DNA from: Bacteroidia bacterium
GTDB taxonomy: Bacteria; Bacteroidota; Bacteroidia; Chitinophagales; UBA2359
Direction of reading: 5' to 3'
DNA: 64,000 bases
NCBI GenBank assembly: GCA_030427245.1
Contig: JAUHXA010000014.1
Location: 1-64,000, forward strand
The stretch's first letter is position 1. The number at the start of each line of letters is the position of its first letter. The notes beneath the pieces are model-generated. The model did not search any database, was not told where the DNA came from, and worked only from the letters and a program-made list of their open reading frames with translations. Shown here piece after piece: positions 1,995 to 51,235 of the stretch. The position numbers were made by a program, and so were the translations under genes.

Positions 1995-2213
1995 ATGAAC
2001 TCAGAACACACGTATATTCCCGACATCACATCAGCAAAAGCAAAAGACGGCATTTCTTTAGGCTTAATGGCCTTTTTGATATTCTACAATATTGCCTTTT
2101 TGATATTTGCCATTGTTGCATATCAAAAAGGATGGGTTATCCTATGCATGAGTATGTCTGCCGTGCTAATTTTTGGATTGTTTTTGTTGGTAGCAGTCAT
2201 CAAAAACAAATAA
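1995..2213 (+). CDS. Small two-helix membrane protein
   Basis: 72 residues with two hydrophobic helices (about 23-42 and 47-69) separated by YQKGW, and a short charged C-terminus. A holin-like or superinfection-exclusion role is possible but unproven. The CACGTATA/ATCAGCAA pair lies inside the first 15 codons (2009-2037), giving residues HTYIPDITSAKAK. Translation could therefore start later, at the ATG at about 2065, leaving a 49-residue protein. Confidence 0.55.
   Translation: MNSEHTYIPDITSAKAKDGISLGLMAFLIFYNIAFLIFAIVAYQKGWVILCMSMSAVLIFGLFLLVAVIKNK
2009..2037 (+). promoter_or_regulatory. CACGTATA / ATCAGCAA element 1
   Basis: CACGTATA 2009-2016 (in ACACACGTATATT) and ATCAGCAA 2030-2037. 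It is the leftmost of 13 copies and lies within the annotated 5' end of the small membrane protein gene. Confidence 0.6.
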
Positions 2214-2261
2214 CAAAAATCATTAGAGACATCACAAAGCATATTTGCAAAATTATAAAAC

Positions 2262-2292
2262 TTGCAAACTAAAGGATTAATTAGTATTTTTG
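2262..2292 (+). promoter_or_regulatory. Bacteroidota-type promoter
   Basis: TTG 2262-2264, a 20-nt spacer, then TATTTTTG 2285-2292, a full match to TAnnTTTG. The expected start is near 2299. It lies upstream of the terminator at 2360-2443 and so would first make a short RNA of about 145 nt. Confidence 0.6.
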
Positions 2293-2359
2293 TCGTCATT
2301 GAGTTGTTGTTATAAAAAAACAGTAACTCTTAAAAGACATAGTTGAATCGAAACAGAGT

Positions 2360-2443
2360 TCCCCTCTGAAAATTTAATGTAAGGGGATAGGTAAAATCCG
2401 ACACCTATCTATTACAGTGAATTTTCAGAGGGGATTTTTTTTT
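2360..2443 (+). terminator. Long intrinsic terminator before methyltransferase operon
   Basis: TCCCCTCTGAAAATT (2360-2374) pairs perfectly with AATTTTCAGAGGGGA (2420-2434), followed by nine T. An inner hairpin GATAGGT/ACCTATC is nested inside. The CACGTATA element begins 8 bp after the U-tract. Confidence 0.85.
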
Positions 2444-2453
2444 GCCCTAAACA

Positions 2454-2482
2454 CACGTATATTATGCCAAAGAAATCAGCAA
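2454..2482 (+). promoter_or_regulatory. CACGTATA / ATCAGCAA element 2
   Basis: CACGTATA 2454-2461 ends 2 bp before the ATG at 2464. ATCAGCAA 2475-2482 falls in codons 4-7 of the first methyltransferase. Confidence 0.75.
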
Positions 2483-3930
2483 AAAAAGCTGTTACACCAG
2501 ACACGAAGATGTTGGTGGACAGAATCCTATATTCCAAAAAATCCAAGTGGCGCACCTTCAAATGGCTGCAAAACGGAAACCTCAAACAACTGGATGAAGA
2601 CAAAACCCAACGACTTATCAATTCCCTTTCTATCCAAGATTTTGTTGCACCATTCTATGTTTGGTTTGAAGAAAAAACAGGCACTACTTGGATACTGGAT
2701 GGTTGTCACAGAGAAAAAATACTACACTTAGCCGAACTTCAAGGCAAATTCACAGCTCCTGACGAACTCACCGCTATTTACATTGATTGTAAAAGCAGAA
2801 AAGAAGCCGCCGAACTGGTGCTGGTCTATTCTGCTGTCTACGCTCAGACCACGAAGCAGGGGCTGTTTGAATTTGCTGCCGAAAACGCCATTGACATCAC
2901 AGCCATTGAAAGCATTGCCGCTATTCCGATGATTGAAGCTGCCGAATTTGAAGAAGAGCATCCAGATGCTGCGGGCCTAAATTCAGAGGAACAGGAGAAG
3001 GAATTTGATGTGGAGGTACCCGAAGACCCTTTCACACAGATGGGCGACTTGTATGAGATTCATTCTTTGGAGAAAAACTTAGTACATAGAATCCTTTGTG
3101 GCGATTGTTTGGACACCAATCAACTTACCAAACTCATGAACAAAGAGGAGGCTTCTATGATATTCGTAGACCCTCCATACAATGTGAGCATCAAAAAGGA
3201 CATTGGAAGCGGAAGCTCCCCAGAAGGCATTCAAAAGCACGATGAGTTTGCAATGGCGAGTGGTGAGATGAGTATTACCGAGTTTCAGCAATTCCTGTAC
3301 AGTGTCTTTAGAAATCTGGCGGCTTTCTCTACGAATGGGAGCATCCATTATGCGTGTATGGACTGGAAGCATGTCTATGAAATAATCACTGCAGGACAGC
3401 GAGCCTACACCGAACTAAAAAACATCTGCGTGTGGGCAAAAAACAACGGAGGCATGGGGACTTTTTATCGCTCTCAACACGAGTTGATATTTGTCTTCAA
3501 AAATGGTCAAGGCAAACACATCAATAACTTCAAACTTGGACAAACAGGAAGGTACCGCACTAATATTTGGGAGTATCCGATTATGACCAGTTTTGGCAGA
3601 AAGAAAACCGAATCAGTGAGCGGGAAGGAATCAAAGCTCCACCCTACACCCAAACCTGTGGCAATGGTGTACGACTGTTGTTTGGACTGCTCTCACGAGA
3701 AGGACATCGTGATGGATACTTTTCTTGGAAGTGGGACAACACTTATCGCTTGCGAACAAGCACTTCGACAATGCAGGGCCACCGAAATCGCTCCAAAGTA
3801 TGTAGACGTATCCGTAGCAAGATACATGTCCTATCAAATCCAACAATCAAAGAAATATAAAGTCCTTCGCAATGGTGTAGAACTCACTGATGAGGAAATG
3901 AATGGGTTGCTCAATATAATCAGAGGGTAA
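2464..3930 (+). CDS. ParB-like domain / DNA methyltransferase fusion 1 (DPPY type)
   Basis: 488 residues. Residues about 15-150 form a ParB/Srx-like domain with the signature WILDGCHREKIL. A linker of about 60 acidic residues follows. The rest is a beta-class methyltransferase: motif IV DPPYNV at about 235, and motif I as FLGSGTTLIACE near residue 421. DPPY usually marks N6-adenine transfer. The ParB half is nearly the same as in the next gene, while the catalytic halves have diverged. First gene of a three-gene methylase operon; it ends 1 bp before the next ATG. Likely role: self-modification of phage DNA against host restriction. Target sequence unknown. Confidence 0.85.
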   Translation: MPKKSAKKAVTPDTKMLVDRILYSKKSKWRTFKWLQNGNLKQLDEDKTQRLINSLSIQDFVAPFYVWFEEKTGTTWILDGCHREKILHLAELQGKFTAPDELTAIYIDCKSRKEAAELVLVYSAVYAQTTKQGLFEFAAENAIDITAIESIAAIPMIEAAEFEEEHPDAAGLNSEEQEKEFDVEVPEDPFTQMGDLYEIHSLEKNLVHRILCGDCLDTNQLTKLMNKEEASMIFVDPPYNVSIKKDIGSGSSPEGIQKHDEFAMASGEMSITEFQQFLYSVFRNLAAFSTNGSIHYACMDWKHVYEIITAGQRAYTELKNICVWAKNNGGMGTFYRSQHELIFVFKNGQGKHINNFKLGQTGRYRTNIWEYPIMTSFGRKKTESVSGKESKLHPTPKPVAMVYDCCLDCSHEKDIVMDTFLGSGTTLIACEQALRQCRATEIAPKYVDVSVARYMSYQIQQSKKYKVLRNGVELTDEEMNGLLNIIRG

Positions 3931-3931
3931 A

Positions 3932-5311
3932 ATGACAGGCAAAATATTAGTGGACAGAATCTTGTATTCAAAAAAAGCCAAGTGGAGGAAATTTAAATGG
4001 CTTCAAAATGGCAACTTGAAAGAATTATCTGATGAAAGGACTACTCAGCTAATCGCTTCTATGAATCAACAGGATTTTGTAGCGCCTTTTTATGTGTGGC
4101 TCGAAAAACCAACAGGGATTACATGGATTTTAGACGGCTGCCATAGGGAGAAGATATTGCACCTGGCAGAATCCAAAGAGGTGTTTACTGCTCCTGATGA
4201 ATTGACAGCTATTTATATTGACTGCAAAAGTAAAAAGGAAGCTGCCGAATTGGTTTTGATATATTCTTCGGTGTATGCTCAGACTACCAGACAGGGATTA
4301 GAAGATTTTGCTGCAGAAAATGCGATTGATATGACGGCAATAGAGGCCATCGCTCCTATTCCTTTTGTAGAGGTGTTTTTGCTTGACAACGAAGAGGAGA
4401 CCGAAAAAGAAGTAAAGGAGGATGGTTTTGAAGACAGTAAAACAGCAGAGCACACCCAAGCGATTACCGTCTCAGGAGATATTTATGAAATAAGGAGTGA
4501 AGGCTTGGTGCATCGTCTAATTTGTGGAGATAGCAGGAGCGTGGAGCTTGTCTCTCGATTGATGAATGGGCAAAAGGCTTTCTTATCGTTTACTTCGCCT
4601 CCATACAATGTTGGCGAAAATCCTCGTATGATTCAGCAAGGAAGAGAATCTTTCTATGAAGGGTTTTCTGACAATAAAGACAAGGATGAGTACCTGCATT
4701 TTTTGATTGACTATACCAACAATACGCTAAAGTTCTCCGAATATTCCTTCAATAATATTCAGATGGTAGCAGGCAACAAACTGGCATTGATAGAATATCA
4801 ACATCATTTCAGAAAGCAATTTGTGGATGTGATGGTTTGGGACAAAGGCTCAACACAGCCTGCAATGGCAGAATATGTTTTGAATTCTCGCTTTGAATTT
4901 ATTTTCATCTTCAAAGAAAACTTACTGCCTTCTCGCAGCATCCGGGGGAAATACTTTAGAGGTACGATTCCCAACGTCTACAATGGACCTCAACAATTCG
5001 GAAACAAATTCCATAAAATAAATGCAGCCACCTTTCCTGTTCACTTACCAGCGCATATTTTTGAAAGTTTTGTAGAGCGGGGAAGTGTCGTTTTGGACTT
5101 ATTTATGGGAACAGGAACGTCTATTATTGCGGCTGACCAAATAGGGGTTCATTGTTATGGCTCGGAGTTAAGTCCTTTTTCTTGTGACATAACGATTGCA
5201 AGATACCTCAAGTACAAACGTGAGGAGCTTCATTCCTTCGAGGTATGCAAAAACGGTAAGTTGTTAGGGCTTGAAGAGTTGGATGAGTACATCGAAAACG
5301 TTTTCACATAA
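3932..5311 (+). CDS. ParB-like domain / DNA methyltransferase fusion 2 (TSPPY type)
   Basis: 459 residues. Residues 5-150 repeat the ParB-like domain of the upstream gene almost position by position (ILYSKKAKWRKFKWLQNGNL, WILDGCHREKIL). The catalytic half differs: motif IV is FTSPPYNV, usual for N4-cytosine methyltransferases, and motif I is LFMGTGTSIIA. The shared N-half next to an unlike C-half suggests duplication followed by catalytic-domain replacement or strong divergence. It starts 1 bp after the previous stop. The ParB domain may recruit the enzyme to DNA or act as a nuclease-like module; this is not shown by the sequence. Confidence 0.85.
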   Translation: MTGKILVDRILYSKKAKWRKFKWLQNGNLKELSDERTTQLIASMNQQDFVAPFYVWLEKPTGITWILDGCHREKILHLAESKEVFTAPDELTAIYIDCKSKKEAAELVLIYSSVYAQTTRQGLEDFAAENAIDMTAIEAIAPIPFVEVFLLDNEEETEKEVKEDGFEDSKTAEHTQAITVSGDIYEIRSEGLVHRLICGDSRSVELVSRLMNGQKAFLSFTSPPYNVGENPRMIQQGRESFYEGFSDNKDKDEYLHFLIDYTNNTLKFSEYSFNNIQMVAGNKLALIEYQHHFRKQFVDVMVWDKGSTQPAMAEYVLNSRFEFIFIFKENLLPSRSIRGKYFRGTIPNVYNGPQQFGNKFHKINAATFPVHLPAHIFESFVERGSVVLDLFMGTGTSIIAADQIGVHCYGSELSPFSCDITIARYLKYKREELHSFEVCKNGKLLGLEELDEYIENVFT

Positions 5312-5324
5312 CAATAATATAAAA

Positions 5325-5462
5325 TCATATTTGCTTTTTTGGGTTTTCCTGCTCGTTTGCATCCTCTTTTTTGTCCATCATAGAGCGTAATATCAAAAGG
5401 CTTGTAGTTATGTCTATCACATTAGAAAGTAAATTTAATAGCTCGCTTATTGATTCCAACAT
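5325..5462 (-). CDS. Possible small antisense-strand protein (45 aa)
   Basis: ATG at 5462-5460, TGA at 5327-5325, in the 470-bp gap between methyltransferases 2 and 3. The product (MLESISELLNLLSNVIDITT ...) is amphipathic at the N-terminus and ends in a charged tail (KKEDANEQENPKKQI). It is plausible coding sequence but short, and no clear promoter was placed. Confidence 0.35.
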   Translation of the reverse strand: MLESISELLNLLSNVIDITTSLLILRSMMDKKEDANEQENPKKQI

Positions 5463-5646
5463 GTTGCTGTTTAATTATTTAGTTAAAAGGTTCAAATTGT
5501 CAAAACTTAAATTCAAGTCTTGGTTATTTTAGTTCTTTGGCTAAATTATCGCAAAAAACAAGGCGAGTCGGGGCTAATGATAGACCATAACAATTGTTTT
5601 TGAGACAGCTAATAAATATTAAATCATATTTGCAGTACATTTAAAT

Positions 5647-5677
5647 TTGTTTTGCAAAGTGGAAAGCATTATCTTTG
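5647..5677 (+). promoter_or_regulatory. Bacteroidota-type promoter
   Basis: TTG 5647-5649, a 20-nt spacer, TATCTTTG 5670-5677 (full TAnnTTTG match). Like the promoter at 2262 it lies before a terminator (5727-5765), so its first product would be a transcript of about 80 nt. The sequence AAATCATATTTGC just upstream (5621-5633) also occurs at 5322-5334. Confidence 0.6.
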
Positions 5678-5726
5678 AAGTCCAGACAATTGACATCCTA
5701 AGCTGTTTTTTACGGTTGTCACCACA

Positions 5727-5765
5727 AAAAGGCAGAAGGGTTTTTGCCTTCTGCCTTTTATTTTT
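5727..5765 (+). terminator. Intrinsic terminator before methyltransferase 3
   Basis: AAAAGGCAGAAGG (5727-5739) and CCTTCTGCCTTTT (5747-5759) form a perfect 13-bp stem with a 7-nt loop, followed by ATTTTT. The CACGTATA element follows at once. Confidence 0.85.
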
Positions 5766-5766
5766 A

Positions 5767-5774
5767 CACGTATA
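5767..5774 (+). promoter_or_regulatory. CACGTATA element 3
   Basis: CACGTATA directly after the terminator and 7 bp before the ATG at 5782. No ATCAGCAA half is visible downstream. Confidence 0.65.
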
Positions 5775-5781
5775 TTTTTTG

Positions 5782-7149
5782 ATGAAAAATCCCCCAACAA
5801 TAGATTCATCTGCAACGCCTATGCTTAAAATCCGTATGCTCAAAGAGGAGCATGTAGATTGGCGCACGCTCCACTGGTTGCAATCCGAAAACACCAAAAC
5901 ACAAATTGATATTGAAAAGCTGATTGAGTCCATTGTTCAAAATGGACTTATTAGAGGCTTTAGGGTATGGGAAGACGAAGAAGGTGTGCAGTGGATTTTG
6001 GATGGGCATCACTTAAAAAGAGCTTTAGAGGAAATTGAAAGCAGAGACTTGCTATCTATTCCTGATCAGCTCCCTGCTCATTTTATAGAATGTGAGAACA
6101 AAAAGGAAGCAGCAAAGTTGGTAGTTGTTTTTTCGGCTACTTATGCGAAGTTTTCAGCTACTGGATTGATGGAGCATTTGATGAACTACGAAATAGAAGT
6201 AGCAGATGTAGCTGCGGTTGTTCATCTTGAAGCTTTTGATGTATCAGAAGTAGAAGCTTTGGCGGCTCATGAAGGTCAGTCTTTTGATGAGGTGATTACT
6301 GCAGAAGCTCAAGAAGACGATATGTCACAGTCGGCCATGCCCAAATTTGCTATCACAGTGTTGGGGGACTTGTACGAACTCAAAAGCACCACAAAGGATT
6401 TGATTCATCGGGTGTATTGTGCAGATTCTACGGAGTATGACTCTATTGATAAACTAATGGATGGAGAGTTGGCGGAATTGTTGTTCTCCTCTCCTCCTTA
6501 TAGCAATAGCAAAGATTTTTCGGTAGATGAAATAGCTGATTTTATTACTTCTTTTTTGCCAATAGCGCAGTTTCTGGCTATTCATTTGCCTATCAAGAAG
6601 GATAAAAAAGGGATTGACCCTTATTGGGGTGCATACGTTGATAAGGCGAAGGATTGTAATTATCAGTTGTTGGCATGGAATATCTGGAATAAGGCAGAGC
6701 CTGGAGACGCTTCTGCAAAGAAAGCTATCTTCCCGATTATTCATGATTTTATACTTGTGTTTGGTAAAGAGGCGAAGGAGCTTGTTAAGGTTGGGAAGTT
6801 ATCCGATTCGGTGTTTACCTTACCTTATAAATCTCAAAAGGCTTTTGGTAAAAAGGTTACTGATATTCTGCCTGTCGAATTACCGTATGAGTATATTATT
6901 GCCATGACCAACAAAGGAGATATTGTAGCAGATCCATTTGTCGGGAGCGGCTCTACTATCATTGCTTGCGAACAGGCAGCGAGAGCGTGTTATGCTCAAG
7001 ACATCAACCCAAGTTGCGTTGATATTTCTGTGGCCAGATATATCAAGTTTATGAGGGACGCAAAGGAGGCATTTGAGGTTTGGCGCAATGGAGAGAAGTT
7101 GAAGGATAAGGAACTGGATGATTATGTAGCAAATGCGTTTAGTTCTTAA
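5782..7149 (+). CDS. ParB-like domain / DNA methyltransferase fusion 3 (SSPPY type)
   Basis: 455 residues from ATG 5782. The frame stays open upstream to 5647, but that stretch is a promoter and terminator, so the later start is chosen. It has a ParB-like domain (WRTLHWLQSENTKTQ ... WILDGHHLKRAL), more distant than those of the other two. Then motif IV FSSPPYSNS and motif I FVGSGSTIIACEQAA. SPPY suggests N4-cytosine methylation. Pairs with genes 1 and 2 as a modification cluster but has its own terminator-plus-element start. Confidence 0.85.
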   Translation: MKNPPTIDSSATPMLKIRMLKEEHVDWRTLHWLQSENTKTQIDIEKLIESIVQNGLIRGFRVWEDEEGVQWILDGHHLKRALEEIESRDLLSIPDQLPAHFIECENKKEAAKLVVVFSATYAKFSATGLMEHLMNYEIEVADVAAVVHLEAFDVSEVEALAAHEGQSFDEVITAEAQEDDMSQSAMPKFAITVLGDLYELKSTTKDLIHRVYCADSTEYDSIDKLMDGELAELLFSSPPYSNSKDFSVDEIADFITSFLPIAQFLAIHLPIKKDKKGIDPYWGAYVDKAKDCNYQLLAWNIWNKAEPGDASAKKAIFPIIHDFILVFGKEAKELVKVGKLSDSVFTLPYKSQKAFGKKVTDILPVELPYEYIIAMTNKGDIVADPFVGSGSTIIACEQAARACYAQDINPSCVDISVARYIKFMRDAKEAFEVWRNGEKLKDKELDDYVANAFSS

Positions 7150-7203
7150 AATAAAGACATCAGTTTGTAATAAATATTTTTCACCAAAAACTTTACACAA
7201 CAA

Positions 7204-7893: not shown

Positions 7894-7932
7894 TGAATGA
7901 TTGAAGGTTAGGTTAGTAAAGGGAATTAAAGG

Positions 7933-7967
7933 CGGCTTGCGACACTTTGTTTCAAGCCGTTTTTTTG
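7933..7967 (+). terminator. Intrinsic terminator after lipoprotein gene
   Basis: CGGCTTG (7933-7939) and CAAGCCG (7953-7959), 13-nt loop, then eight T. Confidence 0.8.
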
Positions 7968-7977
7968 GACTTTGCGC

Positions 7978-7994
7978 TGTTTAGTTACTAAACA
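7978..7994 (+). promoter_or_regulatory. Palindromic operator-like site, copy 1
   Basis: TGTTTAGT-T-ACTAAACA, a perfect 8+1+8 palindrome 15 bp before the ATG at 8009. Near-identical sites lie at 8688 and 8736. Probably bound by a dimeric regulator; the HTH protein of 8406-8771 is the nearest candidate. Confidence 0.55.
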
Positions 7995-8008
7995 AAAAAA
8001 ATATTTTC

Positions 8009-8383: not shown

Positions 8384-8405
8384 TAAATTATAATAACCAT
8401 TAAGG

Positions 8406-8771: not shown

Positions 8772-8772
8772 A

Positions 8773-9408: not shown

Positions 9409-9413
9409 GCATC

Positions 9414-10991: not shown

Positions 10992-11044
10992 GTTCAAAGA
11001 AAAATTTTTAAGTCTTAAAAATAATTATTAAATTTACGCCACAA

Positions 11045-11073
11045 CACGTATATTATGCCTACCCAATCAGCAA
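11045..11073 (+). promoter_or_regulatory. CACGTATA / ATCAGCAA element 4
   Basis: CACGTATA 11045-11052 ends 2 bp before ATG 11055. ATCAGCAA 11066-11073 is inside codons 4-7. Confidence 0.75.
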
Positions 11074-11876
11074 TAAAAGTCCCCTTGGAAGAGGTCTTTT
11101 TGACCAATTTCCCCAATGCAACAGCCATGAATCTCTCCTTATTCATGGTCACCAACCAACGCACAAATAAATTAACACCTGATGATATACCTGCTTTGGC
11201 GAGTCTGATACAGTCCGTCAACTTTGGCGTGAAGGTCTACAAAGTGCAGGACAAGACCCCCGCTCCAGGGCAAAGGGTTTTGGTCAAAACGACCACAGGG
11301 TATGTATTTACTGCGGTGTATGACCTCAAGGACAACAAACCGTATTGGGATGTTCACGCCAATGTCGGAAAAAGCAAATTGGGAGAGGTGGAGTTTTGGA
11401 TACCGATTGAAGACGCTATGTTCCCTGTCGCTTCCAAAGAAAAGCGCCAGATGGTAATGCCCATCACTATGGGGAACAATGGGAAGCCTTCAAATGTCTC
11501 CTCCTCTTCCATTTCTTCCGAAGCTCACCTTCGAAAACTCATCGAACAAGACTCTTTCACTTATCCAGTAGTTTTGTTTAAATACAAGCCCTCTTGCAAT
11601 ATTGGTAAGACGGTGAATACAAGACTTAGGGAACAATGGAGCGATGAGCTTCCTACATTCAATTATATGAATCTTGCCGATTCGATGGAGTTGGGCAGAC
11701 AGGCAGCCGAGTTGCTGAACATGAAGCACGAATCTCCCCAGATATTTATTGTTTGGCAAGGCGAGGCGTATTGGGAAGCGTCCTTGTATAGCTGCAACAA
11801 TATGATGACTATACGCAACAAGATGAGGGAGATTGTATTGAGTCACAACCTAAAATCTCCATCCAATGAAGCTTAA
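11055..11876 (+). CDS. DUF551-like / bacilliredoxin (BrxC, YtxJ family) fusion
   Basis: 273 residues. Residues about 70-122 (GQRVLVKTTTGYVFTAVYD ... FWIPIED) resemble the DUF551 domain of phage proteins. Residues about 155-260 match the YtxJ/BrxC monothiol bacilliredoxin family: FKYKPSC with the single active-site C181, then HESPQI (225-230), carrying the cis-proline of thioredoxin folds. Known for the family: it removes bacillithiol from oxidised proteins, and the resulting BrxC-bacillithiol disulfide is recycled with bacillithiol and YpdA. This phage also encodes a YpdA-like reductase at 28336. The fusion itself is unusual. Confidence 0.75.
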   Translation: MPTQSAIKVPLEEVFLTNFPNATAMNLSLFMVTNQRTNKLTPDDIPALASLIQSVNFGVKVYKVQDKTPAPGQRVLVKTTTGYVFTAVYDLKDNKPYWDVHANVGKSKLGEVEFWIPIEDAMFPVASKEKRQMVMPITMGNNGKPSNVSSSSISSEAHLRKLIEQDSFTYPVVLFKYKPSCNIGKTVNTRLREQWSDELPTFNYMNLADSMELGRQAAELLNMKHESPQIFIVWQGEAYWEASLYSCNNMMTIRNKMREIVLSHNLKSPSNEA

Positions 11877-12981: not shown

Positions 12982-13001
12982 CACGTATGTCCAATCAGCA
13001 A
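12982..13001 (+). promoter_or_regulatory. CACGTATG / ATCAGCAA element 5
   Basis: Here the first half is CACGTATG and supplies the start codon (ATG 12987); ATCAGCAA is at 12994-13001. Confidence 0.7.
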
Positions 13002-14363: not shown

Positions 14364-16019
14364 ATGCAAAATCAAAACACACCCATCAAACACACCAAAC
14401 AAGAAAAGCGATTCATTCGTTATCTCGGCGCTATGGTCAAGAAGTACTTGACTGACATCAATGCGCCTAATAAGATAGCCTATAAGCTCGTACTCCAATA
14501 CGAGAAAAAAGAATGGACGGTGGAGGAATATTTGCCACTTGTGGAGGTGATTGAAAAAGGCGCAGTAGAAGGAACTCTCATGCACAAAACGTGGAAAGTG
14601 GTAAATATCAAAACCTTGTATGACAACAATGCTCGCCCTTTCTTACTTGCCACATTCGCACCATACGTGGATGTGTTTGTGGAGGATGGGGGTTTTATGG
14701 GAGGGGTGTCTTCGGAGCAGTGGCGACTCCTCATAGGAGACGAAGTGACCATTGGCATTGCAGATGCCTATATCCAAAAGTACAACGAGCTTGAAAACTT
14801 CTATGAAAAGAGAAAGTTGGAAATCAGCATCCATACCGAAGCGGCTACGGAACTTCAAAAGGAGCTGGATGCAATGTCGGAAGATATGGAGAACTTCAAC
14901 AAGGAAGAGTATCAGTCGAAGATGGAGGAAATGGAATTCCACATGGTGGAAGCGCAGATAATTACCCAATGTCTAATGACAGGTAATTGGGATGAGAATA
15001 GTTTTGATATTGACTTGACTCACTTCAAAAGCTCCCAATTGCTTTTTGAATACCAGATGGAAGAAAACGACTTGTGCCATCAATTGCTTGAGTTGATTGT
15101 GTACAAACCAGATGGTCAATCTCCCATCAAAGGCCGTAGTGTTGTCGGCTGTCGTGACCTGATCAAGTTTGCTCGCTTTGGGGAGCGAATGCTTCAAGTG
15201 CCTCAACCTATTGTGGAGTTTCAAATATGCGATGTGTCAGAGGAGGAGCTTGCGGCATTGCAGAGTGAAGTGAGTAGATTAAAAGAGGAGCAAGCAGAAC
15301 TAAAGGAGGAGCAGGAGAACATACGAAGTTTCTATGCCGAGCGACTTGATGCCGCAAAAATACAAATGTCGGAATTGGCGGACATTTTTATAGAGAAAAA
15401 GTGGTTAGGAAAGTATTTTGAATTACGAAAAGGAGCGACTCAAGCCAAAATTGACCATCGAAAAGCAGAGGTCGAAAGGTATAGGGAAGGGTTTGTCAAA
15501 AGTGCTACTCTACTTCAATCCAATCTTGCAACTGTTAATGAGAGTTTGTCCATTGCCTCTACAAGACTATATAGTGCAACTCATGCCACTTACAAAGTGG
15601 AGGCACAGCCCGAAAAAATCACCTTTAAGCAAATGACCGAGGCAAAGAAAATGCTTGAGGCGACTTATGAGAAAACGGAAGATGAAGCAAAGGACAACAG
15701 TAGGATTGAGTTGGCATCAAATATTGTTGCTTTGGGTATTGCTCAGGGAGCAGACAAGCAAGTAGCCACCAACAAAGCAATTGCCCTTACAGGAATGTTA
15801 TTTGACAGCGTGCATAGTGTCAATGCTTTGGCTTGGCTTGTGGCTATGGTTGCACGAAAGCGGACAGGCTTCTCTACCTTAGAGCCTTTTGACGTGAATA
15901 AGATTCAACAGATGGCAGAGTTGTTTGAGAAGCGAATGCCACTTCAAACAGCCTATGGGGTTTTTGATTTTTTTTTGAGTTTGAAACGTCCTATACTGAC
16001 TCAAAACAGCACATCTTAA
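14364..16019 (+). CDS. Large coiled-coil hypothetical protein
   Basis: 551 residues. Two helical coiled-coil stretches are visible, about 135-190 and about 290-345 (LQSEVSRLKEEQAELKEEQE). No enzyme motif. Near the 3' end a run of nine T (15968-15976) occurs, after which the -1 frame is open for another 108 codons of protein-like sequence. The zero-frame product ends with LKRPILTQNSTS; a frameshifted form of about 645 residues is likely. Confidence 0.8.
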   Translation: MQNQNTPIKHTKQEKRFIRYLGAMVKKYLTDINAPNKIAYKLVLQYEKKEWTVEEYLPLVEVIEKGAVEGTLMHKTWKVVNIKTLYDNNARPFLLATFAPYVDVFVEDGGFMGGVSSEQWRLLIGDEVTIGIADAYIQKYNELENFYEKRKLEISIHTEAATELQKELDAMSEDMENFNKEEYQSKMEEMEFHMVEAQIITQCLMTGNWDENSFDIDLTHFKSSQLLFEYQMEENDLCHQLLELIVYKPDGQSPIKGRSVVGCRDLIKFARFGERMLQVPQPIVEFQICDVSEEELAALQSEVSRLKEEQAELKEEQENIRSFYAERLDAAKIQMSELADIFIEKKWLGKYFELRKGATQAKIDHRKAEVERYREGFVKSATLLQSNLATVNESLSIASTRLYSATHATYKVEAQPEKITFKQMTEAKKMLEATYEKTEDEAKDNSRIELASNIVALGIAQGADKQVATNKAIALTGMLFDSVHSVNALAWLVAMVARKRTGFSTLEPFDVNKIQQMAELFEKRMPLQTAYGVFDFFLSLKRPILTQNSTS

Positions 16020-16345: not shown

Positions 16346-16642
16346 GAACAACGAAAACAATTAGCAATCGTTTTCCGTAGTTATTAATAACACGTATAGT
16401 CAATCAGCAGCAACATAACTTCACTATGTATTTGCCGTTCGGCTATCAAAAAAATATGAAGCACAGAAACTTTTAGGATGTTAATAGCCACATGGTTTGT
16501 GGTTGTTCATCTAATAGTTGTGAATTTGACAATATTCGGGAGTTTAAATTGCATCTGTGCTTCTTTCTTTCATAATGTTTTGAATTAATGGATTAACTGC
16601 AAGGTGTGTCGGTTTTGTGTAAGCAATTCGGCACATCTTTTA
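16346..16642 (+). ncRNA. Candidate noncoding leader or small RNA
   Basis: About 300 nt between the promoter at 16309 and a hairpin of AAGGTGTGTCG (16601-16611) with CGGCACATCTT (16629-16639), which has two G-U pairs and ends in TTTT. Inside, GAAGCACAG and CTGTGCTTC (near 16455 and 16555) pair over a 90-nt loop that holds CCAC/GTGG. No ORF with a good leader was found. The terminator also argues against starting the next gene at 16604. Confidence 0.45.
16391..16410 (+). promoter_or_regulatory. CACGTATA / ATCAGCAG element 6
   Basis: CACGTATA 16391-16398, ATCAGCAG 16403-16410. Unlike most copies it is 250 bp from the next start codon (16661). Confidence 0.6.
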
Positions 16643-18119: not shown

Positions 18120-18141
18120 CACGTATAATCACAATCAGCAA
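18120..18141 (+). promoter_or_regulatory. CACGTATA / ATCAGCAA element 7
   Basis: CACGTATA 18120-18127, ATCAGCAA 18134-18141; the last A is the first base of ATG 18141. Confidence 0.75.
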
Positions 18142-25019: not shown

Positions 25020-25040
25020 CACGTATAAACTTAATTAGCA
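25020..25040 (+). promoter_or_regulatory. CACGTATA / ATTAGCA element 8
   Basis: CACGTATA 25020-25027; second half degenerate, ATTAGCA 25034-25040, overlapping ATG 25040. It supports starting the next gene at 25040 and not at 24995. Confidence 0.65.
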
Positions 25041-25642
25041 TGAACCCAACAAACATTTTATTATTTATAGGCGTGATTACGCTTGTTGTAATCGCAATCT
25101 GCCTTATTGCTAAAGCAAGGCGTGAAAACAAACACATGGATTTGCATGAAGCCTTCATCAAAAAAAACGATGAATTAAGGCAATTACAGGTGGATTGGCA
25201 TAAGAAAATGGATAATGAGCAAGAGGTGAGTCTATCGAAAGCCATTAGCGTATTAAGAAAAGACAAAGAACGTGCAGCTCCATTGCTTGGCAAAGCACTT
25301 ATCGCTATTTGGGGTAGTGAAGGGGGAATCGACACGAGTGGGCTTATTGCGGACAAGGCAATTCAAAATACCTTTGAAGCTCTTTATGGGAAGGGAAGTT
25401 ACGACAAAATTGATATGGATGACTTCTTCGACATAATAACTACGCTTCTATGGAAAAAAGGGCTGATAGAAGAACTCCCCACATCAGAGATTACCGATGT
25501 CAAAAACTTGGCTTACTACCTATTAGATGAAGCCAAAAAAGAATCTGCTAAAAAGGGGGCTTCACAGGATGCACAGGACGAACTGAGCGATGAAAGAAAA
25601 AACGGAATTTACTCAGAGGGTAATTATGATTTTCCTGCATAA
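25040..25642 (+). CDS. Membrane-anchored hypothetical protein
   Basis: 200 residues. One N-terminal hydrophobic helix (residues 5-24, ILLFIGVITLVVIAICLIAK) followed by a charged helical cytoplasmic or virion domain. The 5'-extended frame from 24995 overlaps the preceding gene and the element, so ATG 25040 is preferred. The next gene starts 3 bp later. Confidence 0.7.
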   Translation: MNPTNILLFIGVITLVVIAICLIAKARRENKHMDLHEAFIKKNDELRQLQVDWHKKMDNEQEVSLSKAISVLRKDKERAAPLLGKALIAIWGSEGGIDTSGLIADKAIQNTFEALYGKGSYDKIDMDDFFDIITTLLWKKGLIEELPTSEITDVKNLAYYLLDEAKKESAKKGASQDAQDELSDERKNGIYSEGNYDFPA

Positions 25643-28328: not shown

Positions 28329-28347
28329 CACGTATATGAATCAGCAA
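28329..28347 (+). promoter_or_regulatory. CACGTATA / ATCAGCAA element 9
   Basis: CACGTATA 28329-28336 ends on the first base of ATG 28336; ATCAGCAA 28340-28347. Confidence 0.75.
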
Positions 28348-29433
28348 AAGAATTACGATATAGCCATCATTGGTGCAGGGCCAGTCGGTATTGAATGTGC
28401 AGTGAGACTACAAAGAGCAGGGCTTGATGTAGTCGTCATTGAGAAAGGGGGCATTGCTCAGACTATCTACAATTACCCTAAGAATATGCGCTTTGTGCGC
28501 ACCAAACAGGAAATGCAGATTGAGGACATTGAGTACCGTGCCAAAACAGACTACCCCACAAAAGAGGAGGCGCTCACTTATTATCACAAGGTTGTGGAAC
28601 AAGAAGATTTGGAGGTGTGTACTTTTTGTGAATTAGAATTATTTACCAAAAAAATAGAGGGAGGCTACATTCTGTATGTGCAGGACTCCAGAACCAAACA
28701 AAAGAATAAAAATATTGACAAAATCAACGCCAATATGGTCGTAATGGCAATTGGGGCATGTCAAAAACTAAAGCCTTTTGTGGTAGAGGACTACACAACC
28801 AAACAGGTTATTGTTAGGGAGTTTGAAGATGGCTTGCCTTATCGTGGCAAAAAATGTGTGGTTGTCGGTGGAGGCAATAGCGGTGTTGATACGGCTTTGG
28901 ATTTGGTGAAGGCAGGCGCAAAGGTAAGGCTGCTGATTCGAGAGTCAGAGTACAGGAACAATGTGCCAGCGCATAAGATTGAGGAATTGGAGATTTATGA
29001 AAACCACAACAATATATGGATTGAGTTTGATACTGCTGTCAAGGCGGTATTTGATGATTTTGTGGTTTTGAATGATGATGGTTACATCTTTACCGATTTT
29101 GTTTTCCCCATGATTGGGTATCAAATCAATTGGGAGTTCTTGTCTTCAATTGGTATTCAATCGGGTTACGATTTGGTGCAAGCCAAGTTTGTTACACAAT
29201 GTGATGCACATACAAGAGAATCCGATATGGACAACGTATTCATTGCAGGGGCAGTGACGGGTTCGCTTGATGGCGGCATCCCAAAGTTTAAGAAGGGGAT
29301 TGAAAGGTTGGTGGAGACTATTTTGGTTAGACGAGGGGTGGAGCCTGATAGTGATTTGCAAGAAAGAATGCCCATTGACGGAGAGTCTTCTGTATGGATG
29401 GTTAAGGTTAAAAATGACGCAATAAAAGTATAG
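28336..29433 (+). CDS. YpdA-like bacillithiol-disulfide reductase
   Basis: 365 residues. FAD-binding GAGPVG at 13-18 in IIGAGPVGIECAVRL, the YpdA-typical EKGGIAQTIYNYP (36-48), NAD(P)H-binding VVVGGGNSGVDTALDL (175-190), and a final FAD motif VFIAGAVTG (301-309). Known role: NADPH-dependent reduction of oxidised bacillithiol (BSSB), closing the bacilliredoxin cycle. Firmicute YpdA has a cysteine at the V17 position; here the nearby cysteine is C21, so redox chemistry needs testing. Partner: the BrxC-like protein of 11055-11876. A general thioredoxin-reductase-like enzyme is the alternative. Confidence 0.78.
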   Translation: MNQQKNYDIAIIGAGPVGIECAVRLQRAGLDVVVIEKGGIAQTIYNYPKNMRFVRTKQEMQIEDIEYRAKTDYPTKEEALTYYHKVVEQEDLEVCTFCELELFTKKIEGGYILYVQDSRTKQKNKNIDKINANMVVMAIGACQKLKPFVVEDYTTKQVIVREFEDGLPYRGKKCVVVGGGNSGVDTALDLVKAGAKVRLLIRESEYRNNVPAHKIEELEIYENHNNIWIEFDTAVKAVFDDFVVLNDDGYIFTDFVFPMIGYQINWEFLSSIGIQSGYDLVQAKFVTQCDAHTRESDMDNVFIAGAVTGSLDGGIPKFKKGIERLVETILVRRGVEPDSDLQERMPIDGESSVWMVKVKNDAIKV

Positions 29434-30868: not shown

Positions 30869-30889
30869 CACGTATATTCCAATCAGCAA
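30869..30889 (+). promoter_or_regulatory. CACGTATA / ATCAGCAA element 10
   Basis: CACGTATA 30869-30876, ATCAGCAA 30882-30889. A hairpin with a U-tract starts at its end, about 190 bp before the tape-measure ATG. Confidence 0.7.
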
Positions 30890-38747: not shown

Positions 38748-38823
38748 CACGTATATTTTTTTTGTTGGCTGATTTGAATCAGCAAAGATAAAACACAAAT
38801 CAGCCAACCTATTCACACGTATA
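38748..38823 (+). promoter_or_regulatory. Double CACGTATA element flanking a hairpin (elements 11 and 12)
   Basis: CACGTATA at 38748-38755 and again at 38816-38823. Between them GTTGGCTGATTTG (38764-38776) and CAAATCAGCCAAC (38796-38808) form a perfect 13-bp hairpin whose loop contains ATCAGCAA (38778-38785). It is the leader of the capsid gene, the most strongly expressed gene in most phages. Confidence 0.75.
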
Positions 38824-41205: not shown

Positions 41206-41207
41206 AG

Positions 41208-42785: not shown

Positions 42786-42855
42786 ACATAGGGTTAGCCT
42801 CCTATTGAATTGGAAAACATAATTTTATTTTTATCAGTAAAACTATATTGATACC

Positions 42856-43095: not shown

Positions 43096-43099
43096 GACC

Positions 43100-43779: not shown

Positions 43780-43785
43780 ACAACT

Positions 43786-44406: not shown

Positions 44407-44441
44407 CATCCCGCTTATCATGAATTTCAAAGACGCAAATT

Positions 44442-44954: not shown

Positions 44955-45016
44955 TTAATTCGGAAATATATTTTTTTCATTTATAGCTTTTTTTATTATT
45001 AAAATAATTTTTAACA

Positions 45017-46762: not shown

Positions 46763-46795
46763 TACTACTGATTGATATTTCTTTTAAATATTTTA

Positions 46796-46827
46796 CTGCC
46801 AGCAATTAAGTAATTGATTGCTGGCAG
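46796..46827 (+). terminator. Hairpin after tail fibre gene
   Basis: CTGCCAGCAA (46796-46805) pairs with TTGCTGGCAG (46818-46827), 12-nt loop. The U-tract is weak (ATTTC). Confidence 0.6.
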
Positions 46828-46846
46828 ATTTCAAATAAAATAATAC

Positions 46847-47536
46847 ATGAATTGCATCAAAATTTTATTACTGGCCTTATTGCCTTTTTTTATTTGTATC
46901 AGCTGTCAAGAACAAGAGGGATTATTTGCCGAAACATTTCAACAAAATGCTTCAAGCGGCAAAAGTAATGCAGCAAAACCTTCCTTGAATCTCGAAGTTA
47001 ATTTTGATGGGTATGAATCTGGATGGCCTGCCTCAATAACAAACGAACGAAAGTATTGGACTTTGAAATCTACACCGAAAGACGAAGCAGGGAATTTGAT
47101 TGACATAAACAATAACCCCGATTCTTTCATCAAAATTTGGGTTTATCATGGAGATGAATCACACTACAACTTCCCTTACGATAAAATAGCTCCTACCCAA
47201 TTAACTTTCTTTGGCAAATACCCTTTAGATGGCGTTATCTGGACAGAGGCAGATAATCCTACGACTCCTATTTTGTTAGGGGCATTTAAGGATGTTCCAA
47301 TATCAGAGGCGTTTAATCAAACAGACTTTATGACTCGTTGTGATGCTAAGACAGGCGGAGATATTGACGATGCTGTTATAGGAGATGAATTCAGATTTAA
47401 AACAAGAAGTAGGGCTTCATTACAAGCATGTTCTACTTGTAGCGAAGGGTCTCCTGTGGTCTATTATGTAGTATTCCAACTAAAGCACAACGGAAAAACT
47501 TCAAAGAAAGAAAAGTTTTGGTTCTCAAATCAATAA
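46847..47536 (+). CDS. Second phage lipoprotein
   Basis: 229 residues. Signal peptide with core ILLLALLPFFICIS and lipobox CISC before Q, giving lipidated C20. The mature sequence contains ACSTCS near the end and no recognised domain. Same length as the lipoprotein at 7204 but no clear sequence similarity. Envelope role, target unknown. Confidence 0.72.
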   Translation: MNCIKILLLALLPFFICISCQEQEGLFAETFQQNASSGKSNAAKPSLNLEVNFDGYESGWPASITNERKYWTLKSTPKDEAGNLIDINNNPDSFIKIWVYHGDESHYNFPYDKIAPTQLTFFGKYPLDGVIWTEADNPTTPILLGAFKDVPISEAFNQTDFMTRCDAKTGGDIDDAVIGDEFRFKTRSRASLQACSTCSEGSPVVYYVVFQLKHNGKTSKKEKFWFSNQ

Positions 47537-47581
47537 CGTGGTTTTCGCTAAAAAACAAAAGACAATAAAATTTTAAGTTCT

Positions 47582-49579
47582 ATGAACAGCAACCCCAATA
47601 AGCCTCAATACGGCATACTCAAATACGGAGGGCGTGAAGTAGCCGTTCACAAAACCGAATTCATCGCCTACAAAACCTCTGACCTGCCCATGGGTGCGAG
47701 TATGGATACACTCCCGCTCAAAACAGTAGGAGAATATGTTTTGGAGCGCAAGCCTGTATCCAATCTCGAACAAAGCTTGGAGGATATCAGGGTAATGAGT
47801 TCGGTAGAAGTAGGCACACACACCTTTACGCTTGGGGAAGAAACCGAACCTCGCATACCTAATGGCGAAATCTATGTAGTCGTCAAGGAGGGCAGCGAAG
47901 GTATGTTGGAAGGGGTTATAGATACTTACTTTCTCAAGAAAGTAAAAAATACAGCAAGTGGAGTAGTTGTATCCGTAAGCTCCCTTTCGCCAAACCCTGT
48001 AAAAGTTGCCCTCTCGCTTCAAGACCTCGATTATATCGAGATAGCAGAACCTGATTTCATTGAAGAAGTAAATCCGCACAGCTTTAATTGGGATGGCAAA
48101 TACATCTCTCAGCAATGGGCATTTGAAAACAAAGGAGGAGGACAAGGGCTCTTCCCCAATCCTGTTTATTTCAAAAAAGGCGCAGACTGCAAAGGTTTTG
48201 CGGCTCTTAGATGGATTGAAGAAAACAACATTCCTTTGGAGGATGGCGTAGAGGTTGGAGTTATTGATGATGCGATAGCAGAGTTTGAAGGAATCAATCT
48301 TCAAAGCACCTTTTCCTGTCGTACTCAAAAACCAGATGCCAGTCCAAGATTGGGAGTAGATAAGCATGGTACGGCTGTATGCAGCACCATTGCAGCAAAC
48401 AACGACATGCTCGGAGTGAGTCCTGATGCCCCTATTCATTTTATTGGGTTTTGGGTGCTGTCGGATGATATTATTGAGCAGCAGTTCAAGAGAATGGAAA
48501 AAGCGCATGTAGTGGCCGTATGCTGCAGTTGGGGAGCATCTTCAAACAACTATGTGTTGAGTACCCGCAAAAAAGAAGCCTTGAAGTCCTGCACCCTCAA
48601 TGGGAGGCAAGGCAAGGGAACGCTGATTTGTTTTGCTTCTGGTAATGCTGCCTTGAAACAAATTGCAGGATTTGCAGCCGACAAACACACGCTCGCCATT
48701 GGCGCATGTACTTCAAAGGATGAATTAAGTCACTACTCCAATACTTCAAATGACAATCCCGAAGGAGAGGGTGAAATATTTTGTGTTGCCAGTTCTTCCA
48801 TTGTCCCCAATCTTTCCTGCAATGTGCCTGGATGGTTTGACGAGGCTCAAAAAATCCCCAATGGGTACGATGGCATTGTACTTGGAGACGGAGAGATAGA
48901 GACTCGATTCACGAACGGGTTTGGAGGCACCTCCAATGCTGCCCCAAAGGTAGTAGGAGCGATTCATCTCTGCGCTCGAATCAACCCTCAACTGACAGCA
49001 GATGAATTGAAGGCTATTATTTCACAAAGCTGTGACTTGATAGGAGGGGCAAAAGAAAAGACTCCCGAATTTGGACATGGAAAACTCAATGTTCTCAAAG
49101 CCGTAAAGTTGGCTTATGCAACAACTCAAGAAGAAGAAGAAGAAGAAGAAGACAACAACAACAACGAGGATAAAGACAAAGAAGACAACATTCCTACGCT
49201 AAACGTTCAAGAGCTTATTGCTTATGCACAAGGAGTGGGTCAAATTTCTACATCCAACAAAGAAGAAGGCGCAATACACTTCTGGAACTCTATGGTGTCA
49301 GGTAATTACATTGTGGTGATAACAGACATCAATGGAGAGGCATTCAACAATCCAGATTTTGATGTATACATGAAACGAATAGGAGATGCAGGAATGAATT
49401 TCAGAGAAGTTCAATCTTATAAGGCACTTCCGACTAAAGAAGACTATGACTATGCAGGAACTGGCACAGGAGAACAAGAGGTCTTAATGCTCAAAGATAT
49501 CAAAGGCGGCACTTACGCCTTTAGAGTCCATAGCAAAGACCATGATGGCCCTTACAAATTGACCGTAAGAACTTATTAA
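47582..49579 (+). CDS. Subtilisin-like serine protease (S8) with C-terminal domain
   Basis: 665 residues, no signal peptide. Catalytic triad visible: D229 or D230 in VGVIDDAI, H262 in DKHGTAVCSTI, S451 in GGTSNAAP, with oxyanion N355 in FASGN. An E/N/D linker (about 518-540) leads to a C-terminal beta domain like pre-peptidase C-terminal domains (GGTYAFRVHSKDHDGPYKLT). Placed between fibre and lysis genes, it could be a virion protease cutting host surface proteins or a processing enzyme. Uncommon in phages. Confidence 0.85.
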   Translation: MNSNPNKPQYGILKYGGREVAVHKTEFIAYKTSDLPMGASMDTLPLKTVGEYVLERKPVSNLEQSLEDIRVMSSVEVGTHTFTLGEETEPRIPNGEIYVVVKEGSEGMLEGVIDTYFLKKVKNTASGVVVSVSSLSPNPVKVALSLQDLDYIEIAEPDFIEEVNPHSFNWDGKYISQQWAFENKGGGQGLFPNPVYFKKGADCKGFAALRWIEENNIPLEDGVEVGVIDDAIAEFEGINLQSTFSCRTQKPDASPRLGVDKHGTAVCSTIAANNDMLGVSPDAPIHFIGFWVLSDDIIEQQFKRMEKAHVVAVCCSWGASSNNYVLSTRKKEALKSCTLNGRQGKGTLICFASGNAALKQIAGFAADKHTLAIGACTSKDELSHYSNTSNDNPEGEGEIFCVASSSIVPNLSCNVPGWFDEAQKIPNGYDGIVLGDGEIETRFTNGFGGTSNAAPKVVGAIHLCARINPQLTADELKAIISQSCDLIGGAKEKTPEFGHGKLNVLKAVKLAYATTQEEEEEEEDNNNNEDKDKEDNIPTLNVQELIAYAQGVGQISTSNKEEGAIHFWNSMVSGNYIVVITDINGEAFNNPDFDVYMKRIGDAGMNFREVQSYKALPTKEDYDYAGTGTGEQEVLMLKDIKGGTYAFRVHSKDHDGPYKLTVRTY

Positions 49580-49590
49580 AAAAAACGAAC

Positions 49591-49983
49591 ATGCACGAAT
49601 TGCCATTACCCGCAATCAATATGGGGTTCAATATGCTAATCAATCCCATCTGTTTGGTTTTGCACGCATATTACCTTCGCAAAGGCAAAGAAAGGGTTGT
49701 GCGTTCAGAAATACTGAACCCATTTCAGATAAAGGTTTTGGAGAGGGGTCTTTGGATAATTTCGCTTGGAGCTTTTTTTACGTTGTTTTTGTCAATTGTA
49801 TTATTTGCCTATAGTACTGTAAACGCATTTGCCATTGGGTCTTATCCCCCGGGCAAAGGTGTTGAGTTGTCTGTTCGATTAATAAATCTATTTAATAACA
49901 CTACCAAAACAACCATAATTTTTTTTGTGATAGCTATCATATTTAATTTAGAAGGCCTACCAAGTCTTCTATCGAAAAAATAG
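49591..49983 (+). CDS. Membrane protein, three predicted helices
   Basis: 130 residues. Hydrophobic segments at about 8-28, 53-77 and 108-125. 11 bp after the protease gene. Together with the next two small membrane proteins it forms a probable lysis cassette; a holin role is possible. Confidence 0.65.
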   Translation: MHELPLPAINMGFNMLINPICLVLHAYYLRKGKERVVRSEILNPFQIKVLERGLWIISLGAFFTLFLSIVLFAYSTVNAFAIGSYPPGKGVELSVRLINLFNNTTKTTIIFFVIAIIFNLEGLPSLLSKK

Positions 49984-50049
49984 AAACCACAACTGTAACC
50001 AGATTTAGAAAGTACACCCTGATGCTTTATTCACCCTAAAGATTTGAAC

Positions 50050-50307
50050 ATGATCATCATATTACAGGCAGGGAGTCAGGCCTTAGACATGTCTGACAAG
50101 GTATTGAATCCTGAGTTTATAACGTGGTTGGTTGAATATTTCGGTGTTGGACTTTCAATGACCGTGTTTGTTATTGTTATTATTTACAAATTGATAATTG
50201 CACTAATTGGCTTGATAAGCAACCCTAATATGATAGCCAATTTGAGTTATATAGCAGGACATATTAAGCGATTCAAAAAAGAAAAGGACAAAACAAAGGA
50301 TGGTTAA
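50050..50307 (+). CDS. Holin-like small membrane protein
   Basis: 85 residues from ATG 50050 (a TTG two codons upstream is the alternative). One long hydrophobic helix (FGVGLSMTVFVIVIIYKLII), a second weaker one, and a highly basic tail (KRFKKEKDKTKDG). Size and layout fit a phage holin. Confidence 0.6.
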   Translation: MIIILQAGSQALDMSDKVLNPEFITWLVEYFGVGLSMTVFVIVIIYKLIIALIGLISNPNMIANLSYIAGHIKRFKKEKDKTKDG

Positions 50308-50340
50308 GAGGATGTTTTACACAACTAAATCAACGAAAAG

Positions 50341-50619
50341 ATGAATCTCTTGGCTCTTTATCGAAAACATAAATACCTCCTCATTAGTGGAGTGTTTATG
50401 CTGGTATTTTCATTGGCAAGTCCAGTGGTAAACACGATAGTAAACCACAGGCTTAAAGATGATTGCAAGAAACTAAACAAAGGATACTTCGATAACCTAT
50501 TGACGATTCCTTCTTTGAGAATATCCACCTCTTGCATTGTCCCTAAAGAAAAGAAAGAAGATGAAAAAAGTAAAATCACTGGTAATTCTACTTCTGATTT
50601 GGTGTACTATTGGAAATAA
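50341..50619 (+). CDS. Membrane-anchored small protein (spanin-like position)
   Basis: 92 residues. N-terminal membrane anchor (YLLISGVFMLVFSLASPVV), then a charged periplasmic-type domain. Its last 59 bp overlap the next gene in another frame, an arrangement that recalls Rz/Rz1 spanin pairs, though neither sequence is diagnostic. Confidence 0.55.
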   Translation: MNLLALYRKHKYLLISGVFMLVFSLASPVVNTIVNHRLKDDCKKLNKGYFDNLLTIPSLRISTSCIVPKEKKEDEKSKITGNSTSDLVYYWK

Positions 50620-51181
50620 TTATTCCACAGCCCAAGTTTTGGAGCAGCCATATCAAGAAGATACCGAAGGATACAGCTTAGAGGACACCCTCAATTGCAA
50701 CACAAACAAAGAGGTTGTACCACAGTCTTATTGGAGTAAGTTGAAAAGGAAATGGCTGAATCCACCTTCTTACAAAATAACCTTTGAAGAGTTTCAGTAT
50801 GAAAACTATTTCAAGTCCAATCTTGAAAGAACATTTTACTTGGAACTGCGAAAAGATTATTACTACGACATAGACACGCATTATTCATACGAAATCTTTT
50901 ACATCACCAAAGCATCCCTTAGAGCGCACGCACATTTTGGGTTTCATTCAAGAGAAGAGTTAATCAACACGCCTTTTTTTTGTTTGTTGAGCGAACAAGG
51001 GATTCGGTATTTCCAAAAAGTTTTCAATGACTATACCAGAGGCTGTGAAAGTTCTTTGGATGTTTTTGAAACGGATGTGATTGTTAAGTCAGAAAAACAG
51101 CATCACTTCAAAAACATCGAATGGATATTCATGCGATTGGAAGACAATAAGATTTTTTTACAAGGCACATCGTCACTATAA
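50561..51181 (+). CDS. Secreted protein overlapping the lysis cassette
   Basis: 206 residues from ATG 50561; a TTG-started frame from 50537 is less likely. Signal peptide MKKVKSLVILLLIWCTIGNN to STAQ. Mature domain aromatic-rich, unknown. Overlaps the membrane-anchored gene by 59 bp. Confidence 0.65.
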   Translation: MKKVKSLVILLLIWCTIGNNYSTAQVLEQPYQEDTEGYSLEDTLNCNTNKEVVPQSYWSKLKRKWLNPPSYKITFEEFQYENYFKSNLERTFYLELRKDYYYDIDTHYSYEIFYITKASLRAHAHFGFHSREELINTPFFCLLSEQGIRYFQKVFNDYTRGCESSLDVFETDVIVKSEKQHHFKNIEWIFMRLEDNKIFLQGTSSL

Positions 51182-51209
51182 GCGATGTATTTGATACAGT
51201 TTTTAATCA

Positions 51210-51235
51210 CACGTATATTAAATTATTATCAGCAA
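51210..51235 (+). promoter_or_regulatory. CACGTATA / ATCAGCAA element 13
   Basis: CACGTATA 51210-51217, ATCAGCAA 51228-51235, overlapping ATG 51235. It is the last copy and heads the portal/endolysin unit. Confidence 0.75.

Follow-up and report, generated by a model that had tools for sequence, protein, structure and literature searches.

A short two-part sequence, CACGTATA...(A)TCAGCAA, recurs at gene starts in a 64,000-nt stretch of DNA from a Bacteroidia bacterium (the window), the first 64,000 positions of a contig of 107,784 bp (C70). The host assembly comprises 7.58 Mb in 187 contigs. Judging from its gene content, C70 is a temperate phage-plasmid. The element is specific to this phage, oriented in the sense direction and linked to start codons, and it is absent from the integrase, CRISPR and partition-replication modules. 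It is most readily understood as a start-associated mRNA element through which a bound factor co-regulates the translation of a lytic gene set, a reading to which we assign a probability of about one half. We infer action at the RNA level, a protein reader and an effect on translation.

Abundance, anatomy and distribution of the element

No other 8-mer in C70 is as over-represented as the first part, CACGTATA (box 1), of which there are 24 exact copies versus 0.84 expected; one CACGTATG variant brings the total to 25. The window contains 12 exact copies versus 0.56 expected, a number reached in 0 of 100 shuffles. When scored with a position weight matrix, the 25 copies reach at least 15.8 bits and the background at most 12.4 bits, leaving a gap of more than 3 bits; one further degenerate copy, CACGTAAA...ATCAGCAAGATG at 92981, lies beyond the 25. 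An earlier note on the window had listed 13 copies, all of which are at the correct position and on the plus strand (12 exact, plus CACGTATG at 12982), and the search over the whole phage that it proposed yields 12 more.

The other contigs of the assembly hold 46 exact copies of CACGTATA in ~7.5 Mb, which is below the reversed-word control and argues that the host does not use the word. The 12-bp form CACACGTATATT is clustered in none of 395 genomes of the same order. An exact pattern scan of IMG/VR with CACGTATATTATGTCAGC gave 0 matches, a scan for relatives with the gapped form gave 23 single, chance-like matches, and a pattern scan of 84,980 genomes gave 4 single matches. The same annotation-free 8-mer test recovers the known start-associated sequence (SAS) in phage Anaya, and in the Bacteroidota phages phi10:1 and Versailles it detects no equivalent word and nothing as extreme. 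The repeats of Versailles were rejected as an equivalent, being a local cluster at 1.6-1.9 kb.

The consensus of box 1 is MACACGTATATT, with conservation spanning only about -2 to +9 of the box. Box 2 (ATCAGCAA or TCAGCA) follows 2-30 nt after box 1, most commonly at spacings of 5 and 14 and without evident helical phase; TCAGCA is found within 30 nt downstream of 18 of the 25 copies, compared to 1 of 121 control starts. Within the window, the second part was said to follow 3-22 nt on, and indeed exact ATCAGCAA is present in 9 of 13 copies, with one-base or two-base variants at 16391 and 25020 and no box 2 at 5767 and 38816 (Table 1).

A same-strand start codon lies within 30 nt of 21 of the 25 copies (random expectation 0.037, noncoding random 0.14). 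For most, the start codon is positioned -3 to +7 nt after box 1 (28336, 91630, 104266, 12987, 2464, 11055 and others), while in others it touches box 2 (18141, 25040, 51235, 100547) or the ATG lies 14-30 nt ahead of box 1 (copies 2009, 84829 and 74556). Two layouts can be distinguished, one with box 1 at about -10 and box 2 after the AUG, and one with box 1 at about -25 to -20 and box 2 touching the AUG. The claim that nearly all window copies sit at a start codon holds for 9 of 13, in which the distance from the beginning of box 1 to the start codon is 5-25 nt; the copy at 2009 follows its ATG and those at 16391, 30869 and 38748 precede theirs at a distance (Table 1). Since box 2 occurs upstream of the ATG and out of frame as well as in frame, the match is not just due to encoded protein, as had been argued. 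Furthermore, five copies start just 10-24 nt past the stop codon of an upstream same-strand gene, inside operons, which suggests action per cistron and not per transcript.

The copies fall into three regions of the contig, with 13 in 1-53 kb, 4 in 74-85.5 kb and 8 in 91-107 kb, whereas the 28 genes of 53-74 kb and the 5 genes of 85.5-91 kb have none. The copy-free stretches contain the integrases, a type IV CRISPR-Cas set, a sigma gene, ParA and Rep3. The exclusive use of the plus strand is true of the window and is a window-edge effect, as outside the window five copies lie on the minus strand, four of them beside minus-strand genes, and seven on the plus strand. The genes marked by the element (tagged genes) have structural, methyltransferase, redox, recombination and nuclease functions, and this set, as annotated, would fit a lytic instead of a maintenance programme. 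The proposal that the element marks late units and spares minus-strand and early genes does not survive, because minus-strand and early-type genes outside the window are tagged; the tagged AAA ATPase and HNH genes of the right arm and three tagged DNA methyltransferase genes likewise contradict a specifically late role.

Three genes set a limit on where their transcripts can begin. In the YpdA-like reductase gene 28336 (homology beginning at residue 8), the AAA ATPase gene 104266 (Walker A near residue 25) and the minus-strand gene 80097, which encodes a C5 methyltransferase, the sole ATG, GTG or TTG before the conserved domain lies inside box 1 or 4 nt after it, so that these mRNAs must start at or before box 1. 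Eight copies have a host-type TAnnTTTG box upstream and three have the variant TATCTTAG there (0.12 expected), placing box 1 in the 5' leader of the transcript at those copies.

Proposed translational control and its alternatives

Boxes 1 and 2 enclose or abut the start codon, the AUG mostly lying directly behind one or the other. In the proposed mechanism, both boxes would be recognised in single-stranded form in the translation-initiation region by an RNA-binding factor that is probably encoded by the phage and that would jointly control access of the 30S subunit to ~25 cistrons; Shine-Dalgarno pairing is little used in the host phylum. A trans-acting factor that tolerates variable spacing would account for the invariant box 1, for box 2, for the sense orientation and for the two positions relative to the AUG. 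Since the start codon is overlapped by the boxes, repression is slightly more likely than activation, and the factor could serve as a RegA-like lock on the lytic genes in the plasmid or prophage state. The earlier note had offered either a phage-specific late promoter or a shared mRNA leader for translation or anti-termination. For the leader, the translation option fits best, while anti-termination lacks direct support, though three copies follow strong terminators.

Several observations weigh against translational control by a bound factor. Four copies have no adjacent gene start (16391, 30869, 38748 and, on the minus strand, 100376). Of the 12 second boxes that come after an ATG, ten read Ser-Ala in frame. 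This bias may partly reflect a constraint on the protein, and it hints that gene starts may have been copied together with the tag. The RNA around the element has neither a conserved fold nor unusual accessibility, no RNA-binding candidate was recognised among the phage proteins scanned, and the host assembly contains no 16S rRNA for a pairing comparison with the boxes. Pattern and protein scans returned no relative in which conservation of the element could be tested. Finally, three strong terminators, at the copies 2454, 5767 and 18120, end 1-10 nt before box 1, so that transcripts of the genes behind them must begin in or at box 1 or else result from read-through; this suggests new transcripts starting at the box. 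An Rfam scan gave nothing at the gathering threshold, and a stem-loop as general upstream partner was rejected (p = 0.41).

The same terminators, which carry T tracts (-41, -21 and -25 kcal/mol at 2454, 5767 and 18120, respectively), are the best evidence for a phage-specific promoter, in which transcription from or just upstream of CACGTATA would yield leaderless or near-leaderless mRNAs and the reader would be the ECF-type sigma factor of the phage or an RNA polymerase, comparable to the reading of a single box by gp55 of T4. Four such terminators had been claimed; the fourth hairpin, before 38816, has no T tract behind it. Consistent with a promoter, the orphan copies 90-270 nt before genes resemble leader starts, the copies are sense-oriented, an ECF-family sigma factor is encoded on the contig (72779-73270, minus), and CGTA within box 1 resembles the -10 elements of some ECF sigmas. 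However, no -35 element, ECF partner or other box is found at a fixed upstream distance, where sequence conservation is likewise missing, and a normal -10 element would put the transcription start site (TSS) past the start codon in 28336, 104266, 12987, 91630 and probably minus-strand 80097, several start codons lying inside the box. Box 2 goes with the start codon, and its spacing varies; such variability, as already argued in the earlier note, disfavours a promoter with fixed boxes. Host-type promoters are found upstream of several copies. A sigma-dependent late promoter consists of a fixed box upstream of the TSS or start, usually with a -35 element, which is not the arrangement seen here. 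T4 late promoters have a single TATAAATA box that is read by gp55 and located upstream of the TSS without a -35 element; they resemble box 1 in being a single 8-bp box of this kind, but differ in that here the box contains several of the start codons. No T7-type polymerase gene was found among the large proteins scanned, and RNA_pol had no match there or in the assembly, where the control of the search also gave no match and the contig may be incomplete. Taken together, we consider a promoter unlikely, while ranking it first among the alternatives.

Quite unlikely, too, is a private translation-initiation code, in which a dedicated factor or altered initiation machinery would read the two-part CACGUAUA...AUCAGCAA around the AUG and translate the tagged lytic cistrons selectively, the host phylum being one that does not use Shine-Dalgarno sequences.

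Stoperator-like DNA sites, on which an immunity repressor would block leaky elongation into the lytic genes in the plasmid or prophage state, appear improbable. The stoperators of cluster A mycobacteriophages are 20-30 asymmetric sites oriented with transcription (PMC6550527, PMC9283540). Likewise, the ~25 sites on the contig are asymmetric, point the same way as the adjacent gene with a single exception, and are mostly located in short intergenic gaps; they are spread over both arms of a temperate phage and absent from its maintenance genes (integrase, CRISPR, par and rep), and their number and layout match the published ones (PMC6550527, PMC3029335, PMC9283540). Nevertheless, the published sites are 13-bp intergenic DNA sites, for which neither a bipartite layout of variable spacing nor a start codon within the site is described, whereas here the link to the start codon is closer than a stoperator requires, with the ATG inside the box in several copies. 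A box 2 at 2-30 nt, without an apparent helical phase, is ill-suited to a compact monomer, and the early promoters seem to carry a different operator, the AAACTTTTTT/AAAAAAGTTT inverted repeat. A non-exhaustive search identified no repressor candidate with two DNA-binding domains.

Reading of the signal by the ribosome itself, through rRNA pairing or a modified ribosome and without a separate factor, would suit the location in the initiation region and the lack of Shine-Dalgarno sequences in Bacteroidota mRNAs (PMC6847099), but is very improbable, since a ribosomal signal predicts one fixed distance and not two AUG-relative positions and is usually degenerate where CACGTATA is near-invariant, a simple scan found no S21-like open reading frame (ORF), and the occurrence of TTGCTGAT in the 16S locus of a distant family is within chance.

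Comparison with known start-associated systems

For a start-associated mRNA element, two known systems provide the closest comparisons. The SAS of cluster K mycobacteriophages is found at 13-19 genes per genome, scattered over unrelated genes (PMC3203893, PMC11373665, PMC12699233). Like the CACGTATA element (21 of 25 copies within 30 nt of a start), it is one short, asymmetric, phage-specific word that recurs in sense orientation at many scattered gene starts, and it stands out in the same 8-mer test. In contrast to the SAS, CACGTATA is an unrelated word without a Shine-Dalgarno sequence that may contain the ATG. A second box follows it at varying distances, and the genes that it marks include structural ones. 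The defining SAS arrangement, GGGATAGGAGCCC with at most 2 mismatches located 3-9 nt before the start, is not present; instead, the ATG is 5-25 nt away from where the box begins, or lies within the box.

The RegA protein of T4 acts on ~30 mRNAs through unstructured, AU-rich sites that overlap or lie just 5' of the AUG, all read by one phage protein (PMC3014915). An unstructured site overlapping or adjoining the AUG on many phage mRNAs is likewise found here, but RegA sites lack a strict consensus, whereas the present element has two parts, the first of them invariant. No match to a RegA homologue was obtained among the small proteins scanned with PHROGs, which covered part of the small ORFs. 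By this comparison, T4 RegA would be the functionally nearest system and the cluster K SAS the anatomically nearest one (PMC3014915, PMC3203893).

Known cases of start-associated words come mainly from cluster K mycobacteriophages, in which their role has been a question since 2011. The element described here adds a second case, unrelated in sequence, bipartite and nearly invariant, from an apparent Bacteroidota phage-plasmid. It would make testable, in a setting without Shine-Dalgarno pairing, the question of whether lytic genes form a post-transcriptional regulon whose members are marked at the start codon. If portable, the element could provide an orthogonal leader for expression tools in Bacteroidota.

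Individual copies and genome setting

Table 1. Copies of the two-box element in the window and genes of the type IV CRISPR-Cas set (coordinates of the contig)
Feature	Position	Strand	Boxes	Context
Copy 1	2009..2037	+	CACGTATA 2009-2016; ATCAGCAA 2030-2037	14 nt after ATG 1995, 72-aa ORF
Copy 2	2454..2482	+	CACGTATA 2454-2461; ATCAGCAA 2475-2482	around ATG 2464, ParB-like/N6-adenine methyltransferase; strong terminator hairpin just 5'
Copy 3	5767..5774	+	CACGTATA; no box 2	ATG 5782, second ParB-like/DNA methyltransferase; terminator 5727-5759
Copy 4	11045..11073	+	11045-11052; 11066-11073	around ATG 11055, protein with C-terminal YtxJ/BrxC-like domain
Copy 5	12982..13001	+	CACGTATG; ATCAGCAA 12994-13001	start codon 12987 inside box 1
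Copy 6	16391..16410	+	CACGTATA; ATCAGCAG	no adjacent gene start; ATG 16661 is 270 nt on
Copy 7	18120..18141	+	CACGTATA; ATCAGCAA	final A of box 2 is A of ATG 18141, 1061-aa tail-like protein; terminator hairpin directly 5'
Copy 8	25020..25041	+	CACGTATA; ATTAGCAT	box 2 overlaps ATG 25040
Copy 9	28329..28347	+	CACGTATA; ATCAGCAA 28340-28347	final A of box 1 begins ATG 28336, YpdA-type FAD/NAD(P) disulfide reductase
Copy 10	30869..30889	+	CACGTATA; ATCAGCAA	211 nt before tape-measure ATG 31080; TATCTTAG 35 nt upstream
Copy 11	38748..38785	+	CACGTATA; ATCAGCAA in loop of 13-bp hairpin	91 nt before ATG
Copy 12	38816..38823	+	CACGTATA; no box 2	directly 3' of 13-bp hairpin; ATG 38839, putative capsid, following head maturation protease gene
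Copy 13	51210..51235	+	CACGTATA; ATCAGCAA	final A of box 2 is A of ATG 51235
Csf3/Cas5	62971-63801	-		type IV CRISPR-Cas set
Cas6-like	66986	-		type IV CRISPR-Cas set
Csf2/Cas7 with Cas11-like stretch	69220	-		type IV CRISPR-Cas set
Csf1/Cas8	70583	-		type IV CRISPR-Cas set
Cas4-like nuclease	71394	-		type IV CRISPR-Cas set

The 13-bp hairpin between copies 11 and 12, before the putative capsid gene, is formed by GTTGGCTGATTTG/CAAATCAGCCAAC (38764-38808, plus). Its stem also holds AATCAGC and the complement of this sequence, so that alternative pairing is possible. Both the YpdA-type bacillithiol disulfide reductase (28336-29433, plus) and the protein with the YtxJ/BrxC-like domain (11055-11876, plus) are tagged, and their products possibly form a phage bacillithiol redox pair. 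The orphan copy at 100376 on the minus strand is followed by an 8-codon ORF (MQSAKLQQ) and runs in antisense orientation in the direction of gene 99343-100314; it could represent the remnant of a gene start or a small RNA. Similar promoters, TATTTTTG/TATATTTG under the inverted repeat AAACTTTTTT...AAAAAAGTTT, are found upstream of 96168, 99332, 101069 and, on the minus strand, 81207, and the repeat is possibly the operator of a phage repressor.

The phage genes recognised on the contig by protein scans encode the large terminase (TerL), tape measure, head maturation protease and endolysin, along with two tyrosine integrases and the maintenance proteins ParA and a Rep3-type initiator. The nearest relatives of TerL belong to phages of Flavobacterium, Bacteroides, Cellulophaga and Polaribacter, which makes a host within the Bacteroidota probable. 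Searches of IMG/VR, INPHARED, plasmids and Bacteroidota genomes with TerL, the portal-like 51714, capsid 38839, AAA 104266 and tape measure proteins found no close relative of the phage and returned only distant TerL relatives.

The type IV CRISPR-Cas gene set lies on the minus strand, in the window at 62971-63801 and beyond it at 66986-72062 (Table 1). It is accompanied by genes for CysH/DndC-like PAPS reductases (64506 and 66242), and a CRISPR array was not found in the contig. The near-palindromic GTGTGTAGGATGTTACACAC is present twice, 81 bp apart (86058 and 86139), upstream of the minus-strand gene 85339-86040 and at the 3' end of minus-strand gene 86112, and this pair near ParA is a possible partition or operator site. 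A second phage-enriched word, AGTGGAGGC, has 14 exact copies in the 108 kb of the contig versus 38 in the other ~7.5 Mb; its copies are located mainly within genes and on both strands, for example at 15596, 26412, 35907, 36036 and 43696.

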